Made by a program: the position numbers and the translations under genes
In this document: positions 4,925 through 9,205 of the stretch, one piece after another
Layout: each line of letters begins with the position of its first letter
Numbering within the stretch: the first letter of the stretch is position 1
Notes under the pieces: model-generated
Databases searched by the model: none
What the model was told of the DNA's origin: nothing
What the model saw: only the letters and a program-made list of their open reading frames with translations
Source: Sphingobacteriaceae bacterium
Lineage (GTDB): Bacteria; Bacteroidota; Bacteroidia; B-17B0; Aurantibacillaceae
Length of the DNA: 64,000 nucleotides
Reading direction: 5' to 3'
NCBI GenBank assembly: GCA_002319075.1
Contig: NVQB01000001.1
Location: 5,394,001-5,458,000, forward strand

Positions 4925-5059
4925 ATGTTAGAAAGAATTACGATTTATAATTCTTGTTGCTTGCAGGCTATGCCGTTAATTGATAGTAAGAGCATTGATT
5001 TAATTTTGTGTGATCCGCCTTATGGAAACGATCGATCTCAAAAGGAGTGCTGTAATTAA
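4925..5059 (+). pseudogene. Truncated DNA methyltransferase N-terminus
   Basis: The 44-residue frame reads MLERITIYNSCCLQAM, then SKSIDLILCDPPYG. This is the start of an N6-adenine or N4-cytosine DNA methyltransferase: a strand with NxDC-like motif I, then the catalytic (D/N)PP(Y/F) motif. After DPPYGN the sequence diverges and stops at 5059. The target-recognition domain and the rest of the catalytic fold are missing, so it cannot be functional. It points to a lost restriction-modification or phage gene at this spot. Confidence 0.7.
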
Positions 5060-5238
5060 CAAGCTTTATACCAACTCCCTGGTTCCTTGCACAATACTCC
5101 CTACTTACCCCGTACATATCCCGTCTTTTAGTATAAAACACATCCATTCACTCAGCTTCTCATACACCTTCCCTCAGAGGTCAATACACTCTTACTCATT
5201 CGTCAAATTTTTCATCCAATTTCCAGCTATCTTTGTAT
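5060..5238. other. Intergenic stretch, no gene seen
   Basis: I see no convincing gene here between the methyltransferase remnant and the next gene. It ends with a TATCTTTG promoter box at 5228-5235. Confidence 0.5.
5228..5235 (+). promoter_or_regulatory. Promoter -7 box close to the start codon
   Basis: TATCTTTG matches TAnnTTTG exactly and ends only three bases before the ATG at 5239. Transcription would start at or just inside the start codon, so the mRNA could be leaderless, or the real start may lie downstream. Confidence 0.45.
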
Positions 5239-5826
5239 ATGGCATTTCAGGTCGGTGATATAAAACTCTCAGGTACTGTAAATGGTATTTCTTTCTACAA
5301 AAGCGTCTTTGGCTGGCTGGTAAGGTCCAAAGGCGGGCCAAAGCGGAAACAATTCAAAACCTCACCGGCATTTGTTCGGTCAAGAGAGAACAGCGAAGAA
5401 TTCACAGCCTGTGCCCGGGCTGCGTCTACTATCCGCCGCCTGGTAATAAGACACACCGGTTATAAAGACAAAACCCTTTACCACCGCCTCATGAAGTTGA
5501 TGCGCCTGCTCGCAGATAACGATAAGGAATCCCTTCGTGGAAAGCGCGACCCTATGAAAGGGATGCAGACAAGTCAGGCTCAGGCACTTTTAAAGGAATT
5601 CAAAATAAGCGAAAATCTTTGCCTCTATGATATTCTGCTCATAGCCGGGTTGTTTAAAGAATCTCATGATAAAGTGAAGGAAGGCAGCACTCCTATTATC
5701 CTTTCAGGGGCTATCAGACGCAGACGAGCCAAAAAGCTATCGCCTTTTTATCCACTTTCTAAAGCTCTGCCGGCACACTTATCTTTAAGCCAGAAACAAA
5801 TACAGGTTAACACCGCTTTCGGTTAA
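5239..5826 (+). CDS. Conserved hypothetical protein of Bacteroidetes
   Basis: A 195-residue basic protein beginning MAFQVGDIKLSGTVNGISFY, followed by KGGPKRKQFKTSPAFVRSREN and a CARAAS segment. This GxVNGxSFYK...KGGP...RENxxEF pattern is one I associate with a Bacteroidetes-specific family of unknown function. The ATG at 5239 was preferred to a TTG at 5233 because the homologous segment starts there. There is no signal peptide or membrane segment. The Arg/Lys-rich C-terminus (IRRRRAKKL) could bind nucleic acid, but that is only a guess. Confidence 0.65.
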   Translation: MAFQVGDIKLSGTVNGISFYKSVFGWLVRSKGGPKRKQFKTSPAFVRSRENSEEFTACARAASTIRRLVIRHTGYKDKTLYHRLMKLMRLLADNDKESLRGKRDPMKGMQTSQAQALLKEFKISENLCLYDILLIAGLFKESHDKVKEGSTPIILSGAIRRRRAKKLSPFYPLSKALPAHLSLSQKQIQVNTAFG

Positions 5827-5909
5827 AGGCGTTTATAGAAAGCTAATTACAGGCTTAGCATCTGCACTACAATCAAACTTTATTTTCTTCCCAAAGCATT
5901 CGCGCATGA

Positions 5910-5939
5910 TCAGTTTTTTATAGCGTATACATATACCAT
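5910..5939 (-). pseudogene. N-terminal remnant of a GIY-YIG nuclease gene
   Basis: The minus strand reads MVYVYAIKN and then stops. The first eight codons are the same as those of the intact GIY-YIG gene at 7035-7316, and the flanking hairpin DNA to the right also matches. It is therefore the broken end of an older copy of the same unit. Confidence 0.6.
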
Positions 5940-6074
5940 TTGCTAACAATAAAAAAAGCAGAGAAAAAATTCTCTGCTTTTATATGTACCCCGCACTTTG
6001 AAATTATCGAACTTTATGCGCGAACCATAAAGCAAAAAGCTCTCCCGTATTAACGAAAGAGCTTTTCTGCTTTA
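5940..6074. repeat. Repeat unit flank, copy 1 (two hairpins)
   Basis: About 135 bases are nearly identical to 7317-7450. The unit contains two terminator-like hairpins, 5957-5978 (AGCAGAGA paired with TCTCTGCT, A-run before, T-run after) and 6035-6066 (AAAAGCTCT paired with AGAGCTTTT). In the second copy it separates the GIY-YIG gene from a tRNA-Leu fragment. Here the tRNA part is missing or decayed beyond recognition. Confidence 0.75.
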
Positions 6075-6153
6075 CGCACCCGGAGGGTACGATTTATCGA
6101 ACTTTTTAGATGATTTCCAAGCAATTAGAGTGTTAAGAAAACTTACTAAGAAA

Positions 6154-6510
6154 TCAATATGCCTGAATCAACGCATTTAATGGAATATTTAATTTTTCAT
6201 GAAGATTACGAATCATCTCTAAAGTCAGCTTACGCTTCTTATTTAAAATTTCACTCACGTGGCCTTTATAGCCTATTATCTTTTCCAGATCTTTTTGTTT
6301 GTAACCCATTTGTTCCATTCTGAATTTAATAGCTTCTATAGGGTCTGGCGCTTCGATCGGATAATGTTCATCTTCGTAACGCTCTATTAAAAGTGCAAGA
6401 ATATCCAGTTCATCTCCTTCCGAAGTTCCAGGACGAGCATCAAAAATCTCTTCAAGCCGGGTTAAAGCTTTTTGATAATCTTTTTCAGTTTTTATAGGTT
6501 TTATGTTCAT
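6154..6510 (-). CDS. higA: HigA-type antitoxin (helix-turn-helix)
   Basis: The 118-residue product matches HigA antitoxins: an acidic N-terminal half (EEIFDARPGTSEGDELDILA), then the HTH region GYKQKDLEKIIGYKGHVSEIL and the C-terminal NIPLNALI. HigA binds and neutralises the HigB ribonuclease and represses its own operon through the HTH. The ATG at 6510 is chosen because the family starts at MNIKPIKTEKDY; longer readings overlap higB. It lies 11 bases after higB, the usual toxin-first order of this class. The perfect palindrome at 6853-6879 is the likely target. Confidence 0.9.
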   Translation of the reverse strand: MNIKPIKTEKDYQKALTRLEEIFDARPGTSEGDELDILALLIERYEDEHYPIEAPDPIEAIKFRMEQMGYKQKDLEKIIGYKGHVSEILNKKRKLTLEMIRNLHEKLNIPLNALIQAY

Positions 6511-6521
6511 GATTTTTAATT

Positions 6522-6815
6522 TTAAATGGATTCGGCATCTATTTTGTCGTATTGGGCGTGAGTCCCAATAAACCTGATCCAAACCATTTTATATTTATAA
6601 TTTATTCTTACGATAAGTCTGTACGAATTGCCTTTGATATTAAATACTACGCGATTATCACTCAAAAAACTTGCACTAGGGTAATTGATTTTAATGTCTT
6701 TCGTTGATACCCAATTTGCATTTGCAGTTTCCTCATACCATGATTTTAATTGTTGTTCACAATCTTCATGTTTCTTCCAAAATAGTACTAATGTTTTTTT
6801 AGCAATAATTCTCAC
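6522..6815 (-). CDS. higB: HigB-type mRNA interferase toxin
   Basis: A 97-residue RelE/HigB-family toxin. The sequence VRIIAKKTLVLFWKKHEDCE, then PSASFLSDNRVVFNIKGN, YRLIVRINYKYK and the ending FIGTHAQYDKID are diagnostic of the HigB branch, which cleaves mRNA on the ribosome. I chose GTG at 6815 because homologues start exactly there and a TAACTTTG promoter box ends 17 bases upstream. A longer reading would run into the promoter. It is cotranscribed with higA. Confidence 0.9.
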   Translation of the reverse strand: MRIIAKKTLVLFWKKHEDCEQQLKSWYEETANANWVSTKDIKINYPSASFLSDNRVVFNIKGNSYRLIVRINYKYKMVWIRFIGTHAQYDKIDAESI

Positions 6816-6832
6816 AAACTTTATCTTGATTA

Positions 6833-6840
6833 CAAAGTTA
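6833..6840 (-). promoter_or_regulatory. Promoter -7 box of higBA
   Basis: TAACTTTG on the minus strand fits TAnnTTTG. The GTG start of higB follows 17 bases later. The -33 position falls in or beside the palindrome at 6853-6879. Confidence 0.6.
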
Positions 6841-6852
6841 AGCAAAAACATT

Positions 6853-6879
6853 AAATAGTTCCCAATTTGGGAACTATTT
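6853..6879. promoter_or_regulatory. Palindromic operator upstream of higBA
   Basis: A perfect 27-bp inverted repeat, AAATAGTTCCCA-ATT-TGGGAACTATTT, 12 bases upstream of the -7 box. HigA antitoxins repress their own operons by binding palindromes of this kind. The position over the -33 region fits autorepression. No experiment is seen here; this is inferred from position and symmetry. Confidence 0.7.
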
Positions 6880-6894
6880 TAAGAGATAGGGAAT

Positions 6895-6930
6895 AAAAAA
6901 CCGCTAAGCGATATTTTATCAACTTAGCGG
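6895..6930 (-). terminator. Rho-independent terminator upstream of higBA
   Basis: On the minus strand, a CCGCTAAG/CTTAGCGG stem is followed by six T residues. It would stop transcripts coming from the tRNA-Leu/GIY-YIG region before they enter higBA. Confidence 0.7.
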
Positions 6931-6966
6931 TGATTTGATGCGATTAAATCTGATTTAATCGTTTTG

Positions 6967-7020
6967 TACCTCCGGTCGGACTCGAACCGACACGATTTCT
7001 CACTGGTGTTTGAGACCAGC
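6967..7020 (-). pseudogene. tRNA-Leu 3' fragment 1
   Basis: These 54 bases are identical to the 3' two-thirds of the intact tRNA-Leu(CAA) at 7661-7740: anticodon arm, variable loop, T arm and acceptor strand. The 5' part is replaced by a 40-bp imperfect palindrome and the end of the GIY-YIG gene, so a normal tRNA cannot form. Confidence 0.8.
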
Positions 7021-7061
7021 CTGCCCGCCGAAGCTCAGCCTTGCGCGTCGGCAGGCGGGCG
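7020..7061. repeat. Imperfect palindromic element, copy 1
   Basis: A GC-rich inverted-repeat element starting CCTGCCCGCCGAAGC and ending GTCGGCAGGCGGGC. It interrupts tRNA-Leu sequence right before the anticodon arm and contains the stop codon of the GIY-YIG gene. It is far more GC-rich than its surroundings. A second copy lies at 7508-7549. Confidence 0.75.
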
Positions 7062-7316
7062 CGTCTTTTGACACAGTTCGGCCAAAATCACCCTTAACCT
7101 ACTCTTTCCTTCTCCTGTTTTATAAAACTTTTCCCATTTGCGAGCTTCGATTCTATCATCACATTGCATTGAAAAAATTAAAAGGAATGGTGAATATGGT
7201 TTTGTACTTTTTTCTTCTCTATTATTATGTTGATGAAACCGAAGGAGGACATTTTCCGTTTGACCAACATAAATGTAGTTGCGGTGAAGGCTTTTTATAG
7301 CGTATACATATACCAT
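7035..7316 (-). CDS. GIY-YIG nuclease family protein
   Basis: A 93-residue single-domain GIY-YIG nuclease. The first motif reads VYVYAIKSLHRNYIYVGQT (residues 2-20), the catalytic Arg is in LLRFHQHN (about 24-31), and the metal-binding Glu is in EARKWEKFYKTG (about 57-68). The family cleaves DNA; stand-alone members in Bacteroidetes often sit beside tRNA genes. The last 15 residues, ending TRPPADAQG, are encoded by the palindromic element, and the stop lies inside it at 7035. The ATG at 7316 is followed at once by the core fold, so the start is sound. It reads in the same direction as the tRNA-Leu fragments. A homing or recombination role at tRNA-Leu is inference. Confidence 0.85.
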   Translation of the reverse strand: MVYVYAIKSLHRNYIYVGQTENVLLRFHQHNNREEKSTKPYSPFLLIFSMQCDDRIEARKWEKFYKTGEGKSRLRVILAELCQKTRPPADAQG

Positions 7317-7450
7317 TTGCTAAAAATAAAAAAAAACAGAGAAAAAATTCTCTGCTTTATATGTACCCCGCACTTTGAAATTATCGAACTTTATGCGCGA
7401 ACCATAAAGCGAAAAGCTCTCCCGTATTAACGAAAGAGCTTTTCTGCTTT
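7317..7450. repeat. Repeat unit flank, copy 2 (two hairpins)
   Basis: Nearly identical to 5940-6074. It holds the hairpin at 7336-7356 and another at 7412-7443 (AAAAGCTCT paired with AGAGCTTTT), both able to end minus-strand transcripts. It lies between the second tRNA-Leu fragment and the intact GIY-YIG gene. Confidence 0.75.
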
Positions 7451-7454
7451 GCGG

Positions 7455-7508
7455 TACCTCCGGTCGGATTCGAACCGACACGATTTCTCACTGGTGTTTG
7501 AGACCAGC
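7455..7508 (-). pseudogene. tRNA-Leu 3' fragment 2
   Basis: The same 54-base 3' section of tRNA-Leu as fragment 1, with one base change in the T arm relative to the intact gene. It is again joined to a copy of the palindromic element in place of its 5' half. Confidence 0.8.
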
Positions 7509-7549
7509 CTGCCCGCCGAAGCTAAGCCTTGCGCGTCGGCAGGCGGGCG
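7508..7549. repeat. Imperfect palindromic element, copy 2
   Basis: Differs from copy 1 at one visible base: the TGA stop of the GIY-YIG frame is TTA here. The remnant reading frame therefore runs through into the tRNA fragment. Confidence 0.75.
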
Positions 7550-7612
7550 CATCTTTTGACACAGTTCGGCCACAATTACCCTTAACCTACTCTTTCCTTC
7601 TCCTGTTTTGTA
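7524..7612 (-). pseudogene. C-terminal remnant of a second GIY-YIG gene
   Basis: The minus strand encodes YKTGEGKSRLRVIVAELCQK followed by MRPPADAQG, matching the last 29 codons of the intact nuclease with two changes. Upstream it joins the TTTGCT...hairpin flank directly, so the catalytic part was removed by an internal deletion between the CTGTTTT stretch and the 5' flank. Confidence 0.75.
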
Positions 7613-7624
7613 TTTGCTCATAAT

Positions 7625-7655
7625 AAAAAAAGCAGAGAAAAAATTCTCTGCTTTT
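7625..7655 (-). terminator. Terminator of tRNA-Leu
   Basis: Hairpin AGCAGAGA / TCTCTGCT (7631-7652), with a run of seven A on the plus-strand left side that gives a T-run on the minus strand. It begins eight bases past the 3' end of the intact tRNA-Leu. The same hairpin recurs at 5957 and 7336. Confidence 0.75.
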
Positions 7656-7660
7656 ATATG

Positions 7661-7740
7661 TACCTCCGGTCGGACTCGAACCGACACGATTTCTCACTGG
7701 TGTTTGAGACCAGCGCGTCTACCAATTCCGCCACAAAGGC
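7661..7740 (-). tRNA. tRNA-Leu (anticodon CAA)
   Basis: The 80-base cloverleaf is complete: acceptor GCCTTTG pairs with CGGAGGT, the D arm carries TTGGTAGAC, the anticodon stem CTGGT/ACCAG encloses CTCAAAC with anticodon CAA, a variable loop follows, and the T arm is GTCGG-TTCGAGT-CCGAC. The discriminator is A and no CCA is encoded. The acceptor includes several G-U pairs. It is preceded by a promoter with TTTG and TAAATTTG boxes and followed by a terminator. This is the only intact copy of three related sequences in the array and reads UUG codons. Confidence 0.93.
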
Positions 7741-7757
7741 ATTTCATGATCAGGCTG

Positions 7758-7787
7758 CAAATTTAGGCTTTTGTTTGGTATTACAAA
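7758..7787 (-). promoter_or_regulatory. Promoter of tRNA-Leu
   Basis: On the minus strand, a TTTG (-33) at 7787-7784 is separated by 18 bases from TAAATTTG (-7) at 7765-7758, and the tRNA 5' end follows 17 bases later. This is a full match to the Bacteroidetes primary sigma consensus. Confidence 0.7.
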
Positions 7788-8108
7788 AAAATAAAACGAA
7801 AATTTTATTTAATGAGGCTATCTAAAACTACATAGTGCCAGTAGGGTTGGCAGGCTAATTAAATTTGAGTTATTTTGCTCACAACCCTTAAAAAAATAGG
7901 CTTTGTCGCGATTTGGCTAATAATTCTTACCGGCACTTTCAAATAGCACAAAGCAAACAACTCAATGCTGCGAGGAATTAATTTAGCGTAACAGTTTAAG
8001 TTAAAATGCAGAATACACTAATTACAAACACATTACAACCCTAAATCCTACAATCCGTCTTTAAATAATCTTTATACCCTCTACCCTAAATCTTTATCAG
8101 CTTCCCTT
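7788..8108. other. Intergenic region between tRNA-Leu and the sensor kinase
   Basis: About 320 AT-rich bases without a convincing gene. It separates two divergent transcription units, and I see no clear repeat or riboswitch in it. Confidence 0.5.
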
Positions 8109-8116
8109 TATCTTTG
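8109..8116 (+). promoter_or_regulatory. Promoter -7 box of the kdpDE-like operon
   Basis: TATCTTTG fits TAnnTTTG, and the ATG of the kinase lies 15 bases downstream. Confidence 0.6.
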
Positions 8117-8131
8117 TAACATTAAAGCCAT

Positions 8132-9205
8132 ATGGACGGATTTCTCTTTCGCAAACTAAGTTTAAGCAAACAATACATTTTCAGCTTGCTGTTTATTTTT
8201 GTTATTGCCGGTTGCTGTTATCTTTTATCAGACTTTGTAGGTTACCGGGTTGTTGCTTTGATCTTGATGCTGAGCGTTTCTATCATCGCTATGTTTTTTG
8301 ATATGAAGCCCGTCTTGCTGGTAGCGGTATTGAGCGCTCTTACCTGGAATTTCTTTTTTATACCACCCAAATTTACACTTGCAATTCGTGGCACAGAAGA
8401 CAATTTAATGTTTCTGATGTATTTTGTTATTGCCATGGTAAACGCTGTTTTAACCTCTAAGATCAGGCAAATGGAAACAGAAGTGCGAAATAAAGAAGAA
8501 AAAGAAAATACCTTAAAACTTTATAACACTGTACTCAATTCACTTTCACACGAGCTGCGCACTCCTATCTCTACAATTATTGGCGCTACAGACAATCTTC
8601 AGACGATGTCCAAAAAATTAACGGAATCTGATAAATATGAGCTGGTCTCCGAAATTTCAAAGGCTTCCATGCAACTCAATCGTCAGGTAGGAAATTTGTT
8701 AAACATGTCCCGGCTGGAGTCTGGTTTTATCAAACCTAAAACCGATTGGTTCGATATAAAGGAATTAATCTACGATGTACTGAATCAAATGGAGGATACT
8801 GTCAAAGATAAACCTGTACACGTTGCTGTGGATGAGAATACCCCGCTTTTTAAACTTGATTACGGTTTGCTTTCACAAGTAATTCACAACCTGGTTCACA
8901 ATGCTGTTACCTACATTCCGACACACGCTGTCATCACAATCCGCGCATTTTGCAAAGACAAAAAACTTGTGTTGGTAGTAGAAGATACCGGAAATGGTTT
9001 CCCCGAAACTGAAAAAGAAAAAGTCTTCGAAAAATTTTACAAGCTTAAACATTCCGGTACTGGCGGAACCGGCCTGGGACTCTCAATAGTAAAAGGGTTT
9101 GTTACAGCGATGGATGGGAAGATAACACTGCAGAATAAGACCGATGGTGGTGCAATTTTCACAATAGAAATTCCTTCAGAACTTTCATTTGTAACGCCTG
9201 CGTGA
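8132..9205 (+). CDS. kdpD: KdpD-type sensor histidine kinase, short form
   Basis: The 357-residue kinase has four membrane segments (about 14-32, 37-57, 58-77 and 90-108) that form a DUF4118 domain, including the motif TWNFFFIPP. Then come HisKA with SLSHELRTPIS (His140), an N box HNLVHNAVTY, and a G box GTGGTGLGLSIVKGF. It lacks the long N-terminal KdpD and Usp domains that sense c-di-AMP or K+ in full-length KdpD, so it is a truncated architecture common in Bacteroidetes. It sits four bases before its response regulator. No kdpFABC genes are near, so its target may be elsewhere or may differ. Confidence 0.88.
   Translation: MDGFLFRKLSLSKQYIFSLLFIFVIAGCCYLLSDFVGYRVVALILMLSVSIIAMFFDMKPVLLVAVLSALTWNFFFIPPKFTLAIRGTEDNLMFLMYFVIAMVNAVLTSKIRQMETEVRNKEEKENTLKLYNTVLNSLSHELRTPISTIIGATDNLQTMSKKLTESDKYELVSEISKASMQLNRQVGNLLNMSRLESGFIKPKTDWFDIKELIYDVLNQMEDTVKDKPVHVAVDENTPLFKLDYGLLSQVIHNLVHNAVTYIPTHAVITIRAFCKDKKLVLVVEDTGNGFPETEKEKVFEKFYKLKHSGTGGTGLGLSIVKGFVTAMDGKITLQNKTDGGAIFTIEIPSELSFVTPA

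Follow-up and report, generated by a model that had tools for sequence, protein, structure and literature searches.

A tRNA-Leu array with a small GIY-YIG nuclease gene, probably a member of a homing-like element family at tRNA genes of Bacteroidota

Here we analyzed a 64,000-nucleotide stretch of the genome of a Sphingobacteriaceae bacterium (assembly GCA_002319075.1, contig NVQB01000001.1, positions 5,394,001 to 5,458,000; hereafter the window), in which transfer RNA (tRNA) sequences and a small gene for a GIY-YIG nuclease form an array at positions 5,910 to 7,740, together with related loci in other Bacteroidota genomes. The results suggested that the array probably belongs to a family of minimal, selfish, homing-like elements that parasitize tRNA genes. 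The observations that carry this reading are the anatomy of the array, the association of nuclease and tRNA genes on the same strand, the tandem multiplication of the units, the tracking of tRNA isoacceptors by nuclease clades, the pairing of clades with hairpin types, and the existence of occupied and empty loci. A unit would consist of a single-domain GIY-YIG gene beside an additional copy of the host tRNA gene, into which a hairpin characteristic of the nuclease clade is inserted.

Anatomy of the Array and Its Nuclease

All parts of the array lie on the minus strand, in the 5' to 3' order intact tRNA-Leu(CAA), internally deleted unit, complete unit and decayed unit. A sequence-only reading of the window had described tandem units of tRNA-Leu piece, hairpin and GIY-YIG gene in these three states, and repeat analysis, open reading frames (ORFs), Pfam and BLAST bore it out. 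The intact tRNA-Leu(CAA), the first member of the array, occupies 7660-7740 (ARAGORN; Rfam tRNA model, 53.3 bits), and on its 3' side lies a terminator-like hairpin (7628-7655; inverted repeats I17/I18, direct repeat D4), of which repeat analysis found further copies at 5954-5981 and 7332-7358. The nuclease gene of the second unit follows (7546-7627; repeat alignments D1 and D4). Its start region is fused to the C-terminal codons, and about 190 nt, with their counterpart at 7125-7314, are missing; the repeat coordinates thus confirm the internal deletion that had been proposed at a CTGTTTT junction in the copy 7454-7655. The tRNA-Leu copy of this unit contains a hairpin at 7507-7545 (pattern match) and, at 7454-7508, tRNA positions 27-81 in broken form (98% identity, BLAST). 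A second terminator-like hairpin block comes next (7367-7453; repeat D3, 98%, and I11/I19), comprising a hairpin at 7411-7444 and then a T-arm-like AAAGTTCGA..GGGGTAC end, with a copy at 5979-6076. The complete GIY-YIG gene (7035-7316; 93 aa; PF01541, E 5.3e-14) ends inside the hairpin of the tRNA-Leu copy behind it (7019-7057, pattern match), whose broken tRNA positions 27-81 lie at 6966-7020 (100% identity, BLAST). Finally, the decayed unit (5915-6076; repeats D3, D4 and D5) retains the two hairpins and the initial codons of the nuclease gene, 5915-5957 matching 7292-7334 at 98% and 5979-6076 matching 7356-7453 at 98%. The complete and deleted units share a direct repeat of 159 nt (6966-7124 and 7454-7612; 96% identity, spacing 488).

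What had been called a palindrome proves to be a hairpin (7019-7057 and 7507-7545) that lies within the tRNA copy, just before tRNA position 27. Upstream of it a diverged tRNA 5' half can be read by eye, BLAST recovering positions 27-81 only. The better-preserved extra copies are nearly whole tRNAs broken by a hairpin, and the earlier idea that the unit copies the tRNA 3' half as such does not hold. At up to 3 mismatches the window hairpin has two sites in the whole genome, both in the array, which rules out a genome-wide repetitive extragenic palindrome (REP) as its origin. Against the tRNA-Sec model, the broken copies at 6974-7040 and 7462-7528 (minus strand) scored weakly, with 20.6 and 24.3 bits and below the gathering threshold of 47, probably because of the added hairpin.

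The window nuclease is a single GIY-YIG catalytic domain, and its 93-residue AlphaFold2 model (mean predicted local distance difference test score 94.5) contains no second domain. In a Pfam scan of four of the nucleases only GIY-YIG scored above the cut-off, with no DNA-binding domain and no HUH/Y1 domain. Y5, Y16, G18, R26 and E62, which we take to be positions of the catalytic type, are invariant in an alignment of 16 tRNA-clade proteins. By profile the nearest solved structures are UPF0213 proteins (1zg2, E 2e-14; 1ywl) and then SLX1, which is a structure-specific nuclease. Foldseek with the model also ranked 1zg2 first (E 1.2e-3, TM-score about 0.5), followed by SLX1 and, weakly, the I-TevI catalytic domain, none of its structure matches reaching E 0.001.

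Small GIY-YIG Genes Beside tRNA Genes

The window genome (5.65 Mb) has nine PF01541 matches, and a tRNA is present at five of the nine loci. Five of its seven short-frame GIY-YIG genes lie within 350 bp of a tRNA, sequence that makes up 0.49% of the genome (binomial P 6e-11); the 350-bp limit was chosen after the data had been seen, the window gene lying exactly at 350 bp and the other four at 94-141 bp. The association was followed in 41 genomes (the window genome, 24 of its genus and 16 of its class), where short-frame PF01541 matches among those listed were counted as genes and long, UvrC-like frames were excluded. From 115 loci, three of which had no ORF by the profile used (two of them long-frame genes), 123 ORFs were obtained. 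ARAGORN placed a tRNA within 350 bp of 46 of the 123, on the same strand in all 46 and at a median distance of 51 bp, a few of these calls being broken tRNA copies. When tRNA pieces were counted as well, the number rose to 63 of 123, with pieces on both flanks at 31, and the nearest piece of a flank shared the strand of the gene in all 94 cases.

Two sets of relatives gave a similar picture. First, an alignment search for Val-type nucleases, with one genome per species, supplied the best 80 of 304 relatives, at least 3 of these 80 loci being already in the 41-genome set. tRNA sequence was found within 350 bp at 80/80 loci and on both flanks at 76, using a tRNA library that includes tRNAs of the same loci and with the weakest pieces about 19 nt long. 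ARAGORN called a tRNA within 400 bp at 69 of the 80, tRNA-Val(TAC) at 53 of them and 48 of these within 75 bp; 86 of the called tRNAs were on the strand of the gene and one was opposite, and the best BLAST flank piece was on the opposite strand twice. Among the hosts are named isolates of Algoriphagus, Cyclobacterium, Pedobacter, Niabella, Niastella, Marivirga, Winogradskyella and others; a few metagenome-assembled genomes carry labels of other phyla and may be mis-binned. Second, relatives of the window nuclease matched in 19 of 395 genomes of the class, window genome included, at E 1e-15. They gave 25 loci (24 besides the window), some overlapping, at 21 distinct places, and two of the genomes (G015 and G036) are also in the 41-genome set. 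An ARAGORN tRNA lies within 350 bp at 22 of the 25. The remaining three are all in G015: L279, the same as L039, has a short BLAST tRNA piece, and L293 and L296, one place and the same as L045, show a T-arm-like piece by eye and none by BLAST. The nuclease is downstream of the tRNA in some window-type loci and upstream in others.

The sequence-only reading had made its case depend on similar units elsewhere, and these are present in many Bacteroidota genomes. Its proposed specificity for tRNA-Leu has to be given up as a general rule. The 19 distinct window-type places with an ARAGORN tRNA, window included, are Leu at 13, Ser and Met at 2 each, and His and Arg at 1 each, other subclades occur at Val, Ala, Asp, fMet, Arg and more, and the isoacceptor tree described below agrees. 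Its idea of a small unit, mobile or homing-like, that takes tRNA sequence along and increases by tandem copies is supported. Tandem units are found in other species too. For example, L031 has three units at tRNA-Val, and upstream of the intact tRNA-Val (minus strand, 140-1029) it carries ten 89-bp tandem units, which consist of a tRNA-Val 5' half, a hairpin replacing the anticodon arm and a spacer that looks promoter-like by eye, with ten exact hairpins.

Isoacceptor Tracking on the Nuclease Tree

In a tree of 118 GIY-YIG domains (5 of the 123 ORFs, whose domains are short, being left out), tRNA-associated genes cluster, with 9 changes of state against 39.5 after shuffling. The isoacceptor label required 24 changes on the nuclease tree (54 rows, 20 states), the minimum in 500 shuffles being 37; this test left out L039, rows below 60 bits and identical rows, pooled L082 as Ser and split Met in two by hand. 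ARAGORN labels of Cys(aca) and Glu(ttc) beside Val-type nucleases proved to be broken tRNA-Val copies and were removed by hand from the label library, although kept in the 46/123 and 80/80 counts. fMet, Leu(CAA), Arg(TCT), Arg(CCG) and Asn needed one change each. Three families contributed to each of the Val, Ala and Arg(CCT) labels, and two to each of fMet, Asp, Leu(CAA) and Phe. Because the columns are few, the backbone is weakly supported and the rows are related, we regard the tracking as strong but attach to it no probability of independent events. Overall, the tree points strongly to a target specificity of the tRNA-clade nucleases, though not to a strict one.

Hairpin Types and Nuclease Clades

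A script found a hairpin bridged between two pieces of one tRNA copy at 27 of 54 labelled loci. The site of the hairpin is largely constant within a nuclease clade, and its sequence varies between genomes. Specifically, the sites are 28^46 in tRNA-Val (23-28^46 in L034), 32-35^40-42 in Ala, 36^42/47 in fMet, 22^23 in Arg(TCT), 17 in Arg(CCT) and 40^52 in Asp (L087 by script, L019 and L036 by eye). Hairpins of the TCCCG type were present in 72 of 80 members of the Val set and 1 of 25 of the window set (distal control, 2/83), and those of the CCTGYC type in 18 of 25 members of the window set and 1 of 80 of the Val set (distal control, 0/83). Among 15 hand-picked members of the Val set that lie at other tRNAs, some with unsure labels, 13 kept the TCCCG type. 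In a third clade, picked after the hairpins had been seen, CCCGATAGCTATCGGG occurred with 5/5 genes against 2/113 others. It is thus the nuclease, rather than the tRNA, that determines which hairpin type is present at a locus in most cases. In addition, TCCCGACTAANGTCGGGA was found at tRNA-Val arrays only, in 3 of the 4 genomes searched.

Val-type hairpins are diverse: a search that demanded perfect pairing yielded 66 distinct ones from 57 of 86 loci, mostly TCCCGAC-loop-GTCGGGA, with pair changes at several stem positions, and without that demand stems of at least 6 bp were found in 13 of 17 distinct segments. Such variation with pairing kept would also suit a system that serves or addicts the host, in which the nuclease would cut tRNA as RNA, the hairpin-bearing copy would act as a decoy or antidote RNA, and decoys would come from arrays like that of G001, with its 10 broken tRNA-Val units. 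That the hairpin often replaces the anticodon arm with a tRNA-like shape kept, and that the ten copies in L031 have what look by eye like promoter-like spacers, speak for it too. However, the GIY-YIG enzymes known to us act on DNA, hairpins in the T- or D-loop would break the tRNA fold, and an element accounts better for tandem growth and for empty loci, so that we consider a host-serving or addiction role very improbable.

Among the arrays without a gene, L160 (1000-1880) has tRNA-Ala(GGC) followed by three 258-bp tandem units, each with a hairpin-bearing tRNA-Ala copy and no recognizable nuclease. A search for relics of nuclease genes in 20 window-genome loci with broken copies or hairpins found none at E 1e-3.

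Occupied and Empty Loci, and Movement

A pattern for the tRNA-Val locus matched in 15 of 25 genomes, and in 11 of these, all of the genus, the upstream neighbor gene is conserved (82-96%). The nuclease is present at 4 of the 11 orthologous loci (G001, G006, G014 and G015) and absent from 6, namely G003, G004, G007, G009, G011 and the window genome (G000), which has hairpin-bearing remnants only. The state of G012, with a hairpin-bearing remnant upstream, cannot be told because its contig ends about 130 bases after the tRNA. In G006 and G007 the neighbor gene is 96% identical, one tRNA-Val locus being occupied and the other nuclease-free. These loci demonstrate a presence/absence polymorphism at an orthologous tRNA-Val site.

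Movement between tRNA genes is suggested by a 557-bp stretch of a related GIY-YIG element in the window genome, which begins at a tRNA 3' end (L003, 1364-1920; L002, minus strand). Its two copies, at tRNA-Arg(ACG) and a tRNA-Met(CAT), are 98% identical, and partial left ends of the element (L313, L314) lie at the 3' ends of tRNA-Phe (110 nt, 99%) and tRNA-Arg(CCT) (178 nt, 84%). We read these copies as recent movement between different tRNA genes. A kinship of the window block 7367-7453 with the ends of this tRNA-3'-end element was seen by eye only, had no BLAST support and was set aside.

Other genes accompany the array. Between the complete and the decayed units lie a HigB-like toxin gene (PF09907, E 4e-32) and a helix-turn-helix gene (6154-6851, minus strand). 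Beyond the decayed unit, 5233-5826 of the window encodes a 195-aa protein with no Pfam or NCBIfam match, which occurs at 11 places in the genome including this one (10 at 82-100%, one at 40%), a few of them near tRNA genes. The truncated units of the window and of L002 have the same flank behind them.

Dispersed Palindromic Repeats

The hairpin CCCGATAGCTATCGGG has 29 sites in the window genome, 12 of them no more than 1 kb from a tRNA where 0.35 would be expected, a count that includes one tRNA added by hand, which was missing from the tRNA list. By eye it was also noticed in an array resembling integron attC-type repeats (L168, G000:C1:2055000-2062200; L174) and once inside an apparent open reading frame (L168/L174). 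At 34 of 52 GIY-YIG genes without a tRNA label, a class that includes a few tRNA-clade genes (L019, L045), both 400-bp flanks held shared repeats, and shifted windows, whose number was not recorded, gave 0. The one label-free gene of the window genome (L001, 1501-1710; G000:C1:4126364-4126579) is embedded in an array of TTCTCGACTACGCTCGA, which recurs at 158 sites at up to 1 mismatch, and from its surroundings it looks like a REP-associated nuclease.

In REP systems, a small nuclease gene, the REP-associated tyrosine transposase (RAYT), is flanked by cognate palindromes, and more palindromes are dispersed in the genome. The GIY-YIG genes studied here are likewise paired with cognate palindromes, and the resemblance of the clade-hairpin pairs to REP/RAYT pairs is supported by the label-free genes with repeat flanks. 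The differences are that the nuclease is GIY-YIG instead of HUH/Y1 and that the palindromes of the tRNA clades lie inside tRNA copies. It is conceivable, although we think it rather unlikely, that the mobile unit is the hairpin itself, moved in cis and in trans by its cognate nuclease into the loops of other hairpin-forming DNA, such as the T, D and anticodon arms of tRNA genes or attC-like sites. The tRNA copies would then stand out because an insertion is survived only where there is a spare tRNA. The pairing of clade and hairpin (including CCCGATAGCTATCGGG in 5/5 against 2/113), the excess of CCCGATAGCTATCGGG sites near tRNAs (12 against 0.35), the shared flank repeats at 34/52 label-free genes, the position of L001 between copies of a 158-site repeat and the closeness of the nuclease fold to SLX1 agree with a mobilizer of hairpins. 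On the other side, neither the window hairpin nor one of the Val hairpin types is dispersed, both having been found in broken tRNA copies only, and G008, with 27 sites of the dispersed hairpin CCCGATAGCTATCGGG, has no nuclease of the clade paired with it among the two loci taken from that genome.

As a tentative wider view, which we think has less than even prospects, small GIY-YIG nucleases may form a second, RAYT-independent class of mobilizers of bacterial palindromic repeats, each clade with its cognate hairpin. One branch would spread dispersed REPs, and the other would have specialized on tRNA genes, where nuclease, hairpin and duplicated tRNA would make up a unit that amplifies itself, attacking an essential gene but leaving one working copy.

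Proposed Mechanism and Points Against It

For the homing-like element that we favor, the nuclease would cut the intact tRNA gene, or DNA with its hairpin, at a clade-specific place that the hairpin of the extra copy would mark. The break would be repaired by recombination with a unit-bearing array through tRNA homology, and the repair would either add terminator, nuclease and tRNA copy in tandem or convert an empty tRNA locus. As a rule one intact tRNA would be left, and insertion into an essential gene would thereby be tolerated. The hairpin-bearing copy would be a non-working tRNA, and it may be either uncuttable or the recognition site of the nuclease. Cutting, its site, the recombinational repair and the selfishness of the units are what we infer from the loci described above.

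Several points weigh against this reading. First, the intact tRNA beside the nuclease should be a target too, and its survival is unexplained. Second, tracking is not strict: Val, Ala, Asp, Arg(CCT), Met2, Phe and Ser(TGA) needed two changes and Ser(GGA) three, and the window clade was also found at Ser, Met, His and Arg tRNAs. Likewise, second hairpins or other hairpin sites occur in L038, L064, L092, L094 and L097, and 11 of the 80 Val-set loci have no ARAGORN tRNA within 400 bp. Third, the sequences are related, small P values therefore overstate independence, and clades and limits were partly chosen post hoc. Fourth, the gain/loss pattern could be mostly loss. Fifth, the window nuclease matched none of 50,697 phage records; a phage origin was accordingly rejected, and with it no sequence link to the phage nuclease SegB was found. 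Finally, nuclease-free, hairpin-bearing broken tRNA copies are common in the window genome (Val, Ala, Leu, Cys and Asn), which indicates that a nuclease in cis is not needed.

The existence of such nuclease-free copies, together with the ease with which tandem repeats slip, would also be expected if the nuclease were a neutral bystander, that is, if tRNA regions duplicated by slippage, palindromes inserted at random and were tolerated in the spare copy only, and a nuclease gene was captured by chance. We hold this to be very unlikely in view of the association with tRNA at 80/80 and 22/25 loci and on the same strand in 46/46 ARAGORN cases, the hairpin site and type that stay largely constant within nuclease clades across families, and the catalytic-type positions that are invariant in 16 proteins.

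Comparison With Known Systems

Together with the REP/RAYT systems, the closest parallel to the proposed element is SegB, one of the free-standing GIY-YIG homing endonucleases of T-even phages (PMC13096335). SegB is associated with tRNA genes, its nuclease activity is needed for the tandem amplification of tRNA-Tyr and segB, and there is microhomology between the tRNA 5' end and the segB 3' end (PMC13096335). The likeness extends to nuclease genes beside tRNA genes of many isotypes, to tandem amplification of tRNA plus nuclease, and to the microhomology itself, which resembles the nuclease ends fused to tRNA copies in our arrays (PMC13096335). By contrast, the units studied here are chromosomal in Bacteroidota, and their protein, about 80-120 aa long, consists of one domain. 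They have no separate DNA-binding domain, judging from four nucleases by Pfam and one by model, SegB itself being compared by description only. Moreover, the extra tRNA copy here has a clade-typical hairpin, and no such pairing of clade and hairpin appears in the passages on SegB used here (PMC13096335).

Among cellular proteins, single-domain GIY-YIG proteins of the UPF0213/YhbQ type and SLX1 are the nearest solved relatives by both profile and fold. SLX1 differs in working with SLX4, and we know of no association of UPF0213 with tRNA genes; a search of open-access literature under these names found no paper. In the rtT (tRNA-Tyr terminal) repeats of E. coli, as in those studied here, the tRNA 3' end recurs in tandem downstream of the tRNA gene. 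They have, to our knowledge, neither a nuclease gene nor a hairpin insert, and an Rfam scan that covered 5000-8200 of the window with an E limit of 1 gave no rtT match. The same scan gave no group I intron, and an intron with a homing endonuclease was rejected. An integrative element at a tRNA attachment site is unlikely: the longest listed ORF of the 488-bp unit is 96 aa, too short for an integrase, the GIY-YIG ORF alone having been scanned.

We do not assign the units to the SegB or RAYT families because neither an HUH domain nor a second domain for DNA binding was found when looked for. They may thus be nuclease-driven selfish elements outside both. Among the open-access titles listed, subscription papers and preprints being outside the scope of the search, no chromosomal GIY-YIG/tRNA units or GIY-YIG/REP pairs were found. 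Apparently this is a widespread Bacteroidota family of very small mobile DNA units that has so far gone undescribed.

If the reading is true, tRNA genes across many Bacteroidota would be home to one of the smallest mobile elements that encode a protein, a single gene of about 250 bp. The element would be a cellular counterpart of the recently shown amplification of tRNA by the phage nuclease SegB (PMC13096335). It would account for the broken tRNA copies and hairpins around tRNA genes, offer a testable nuclease-hairpin pair and provide a candidate mobilizer for the dispersed palindromic repeats of Bacteroidota. With an extra tRNA copy that is broken by a hairpin, the cell could keep a working tRNA while the unit spreads.

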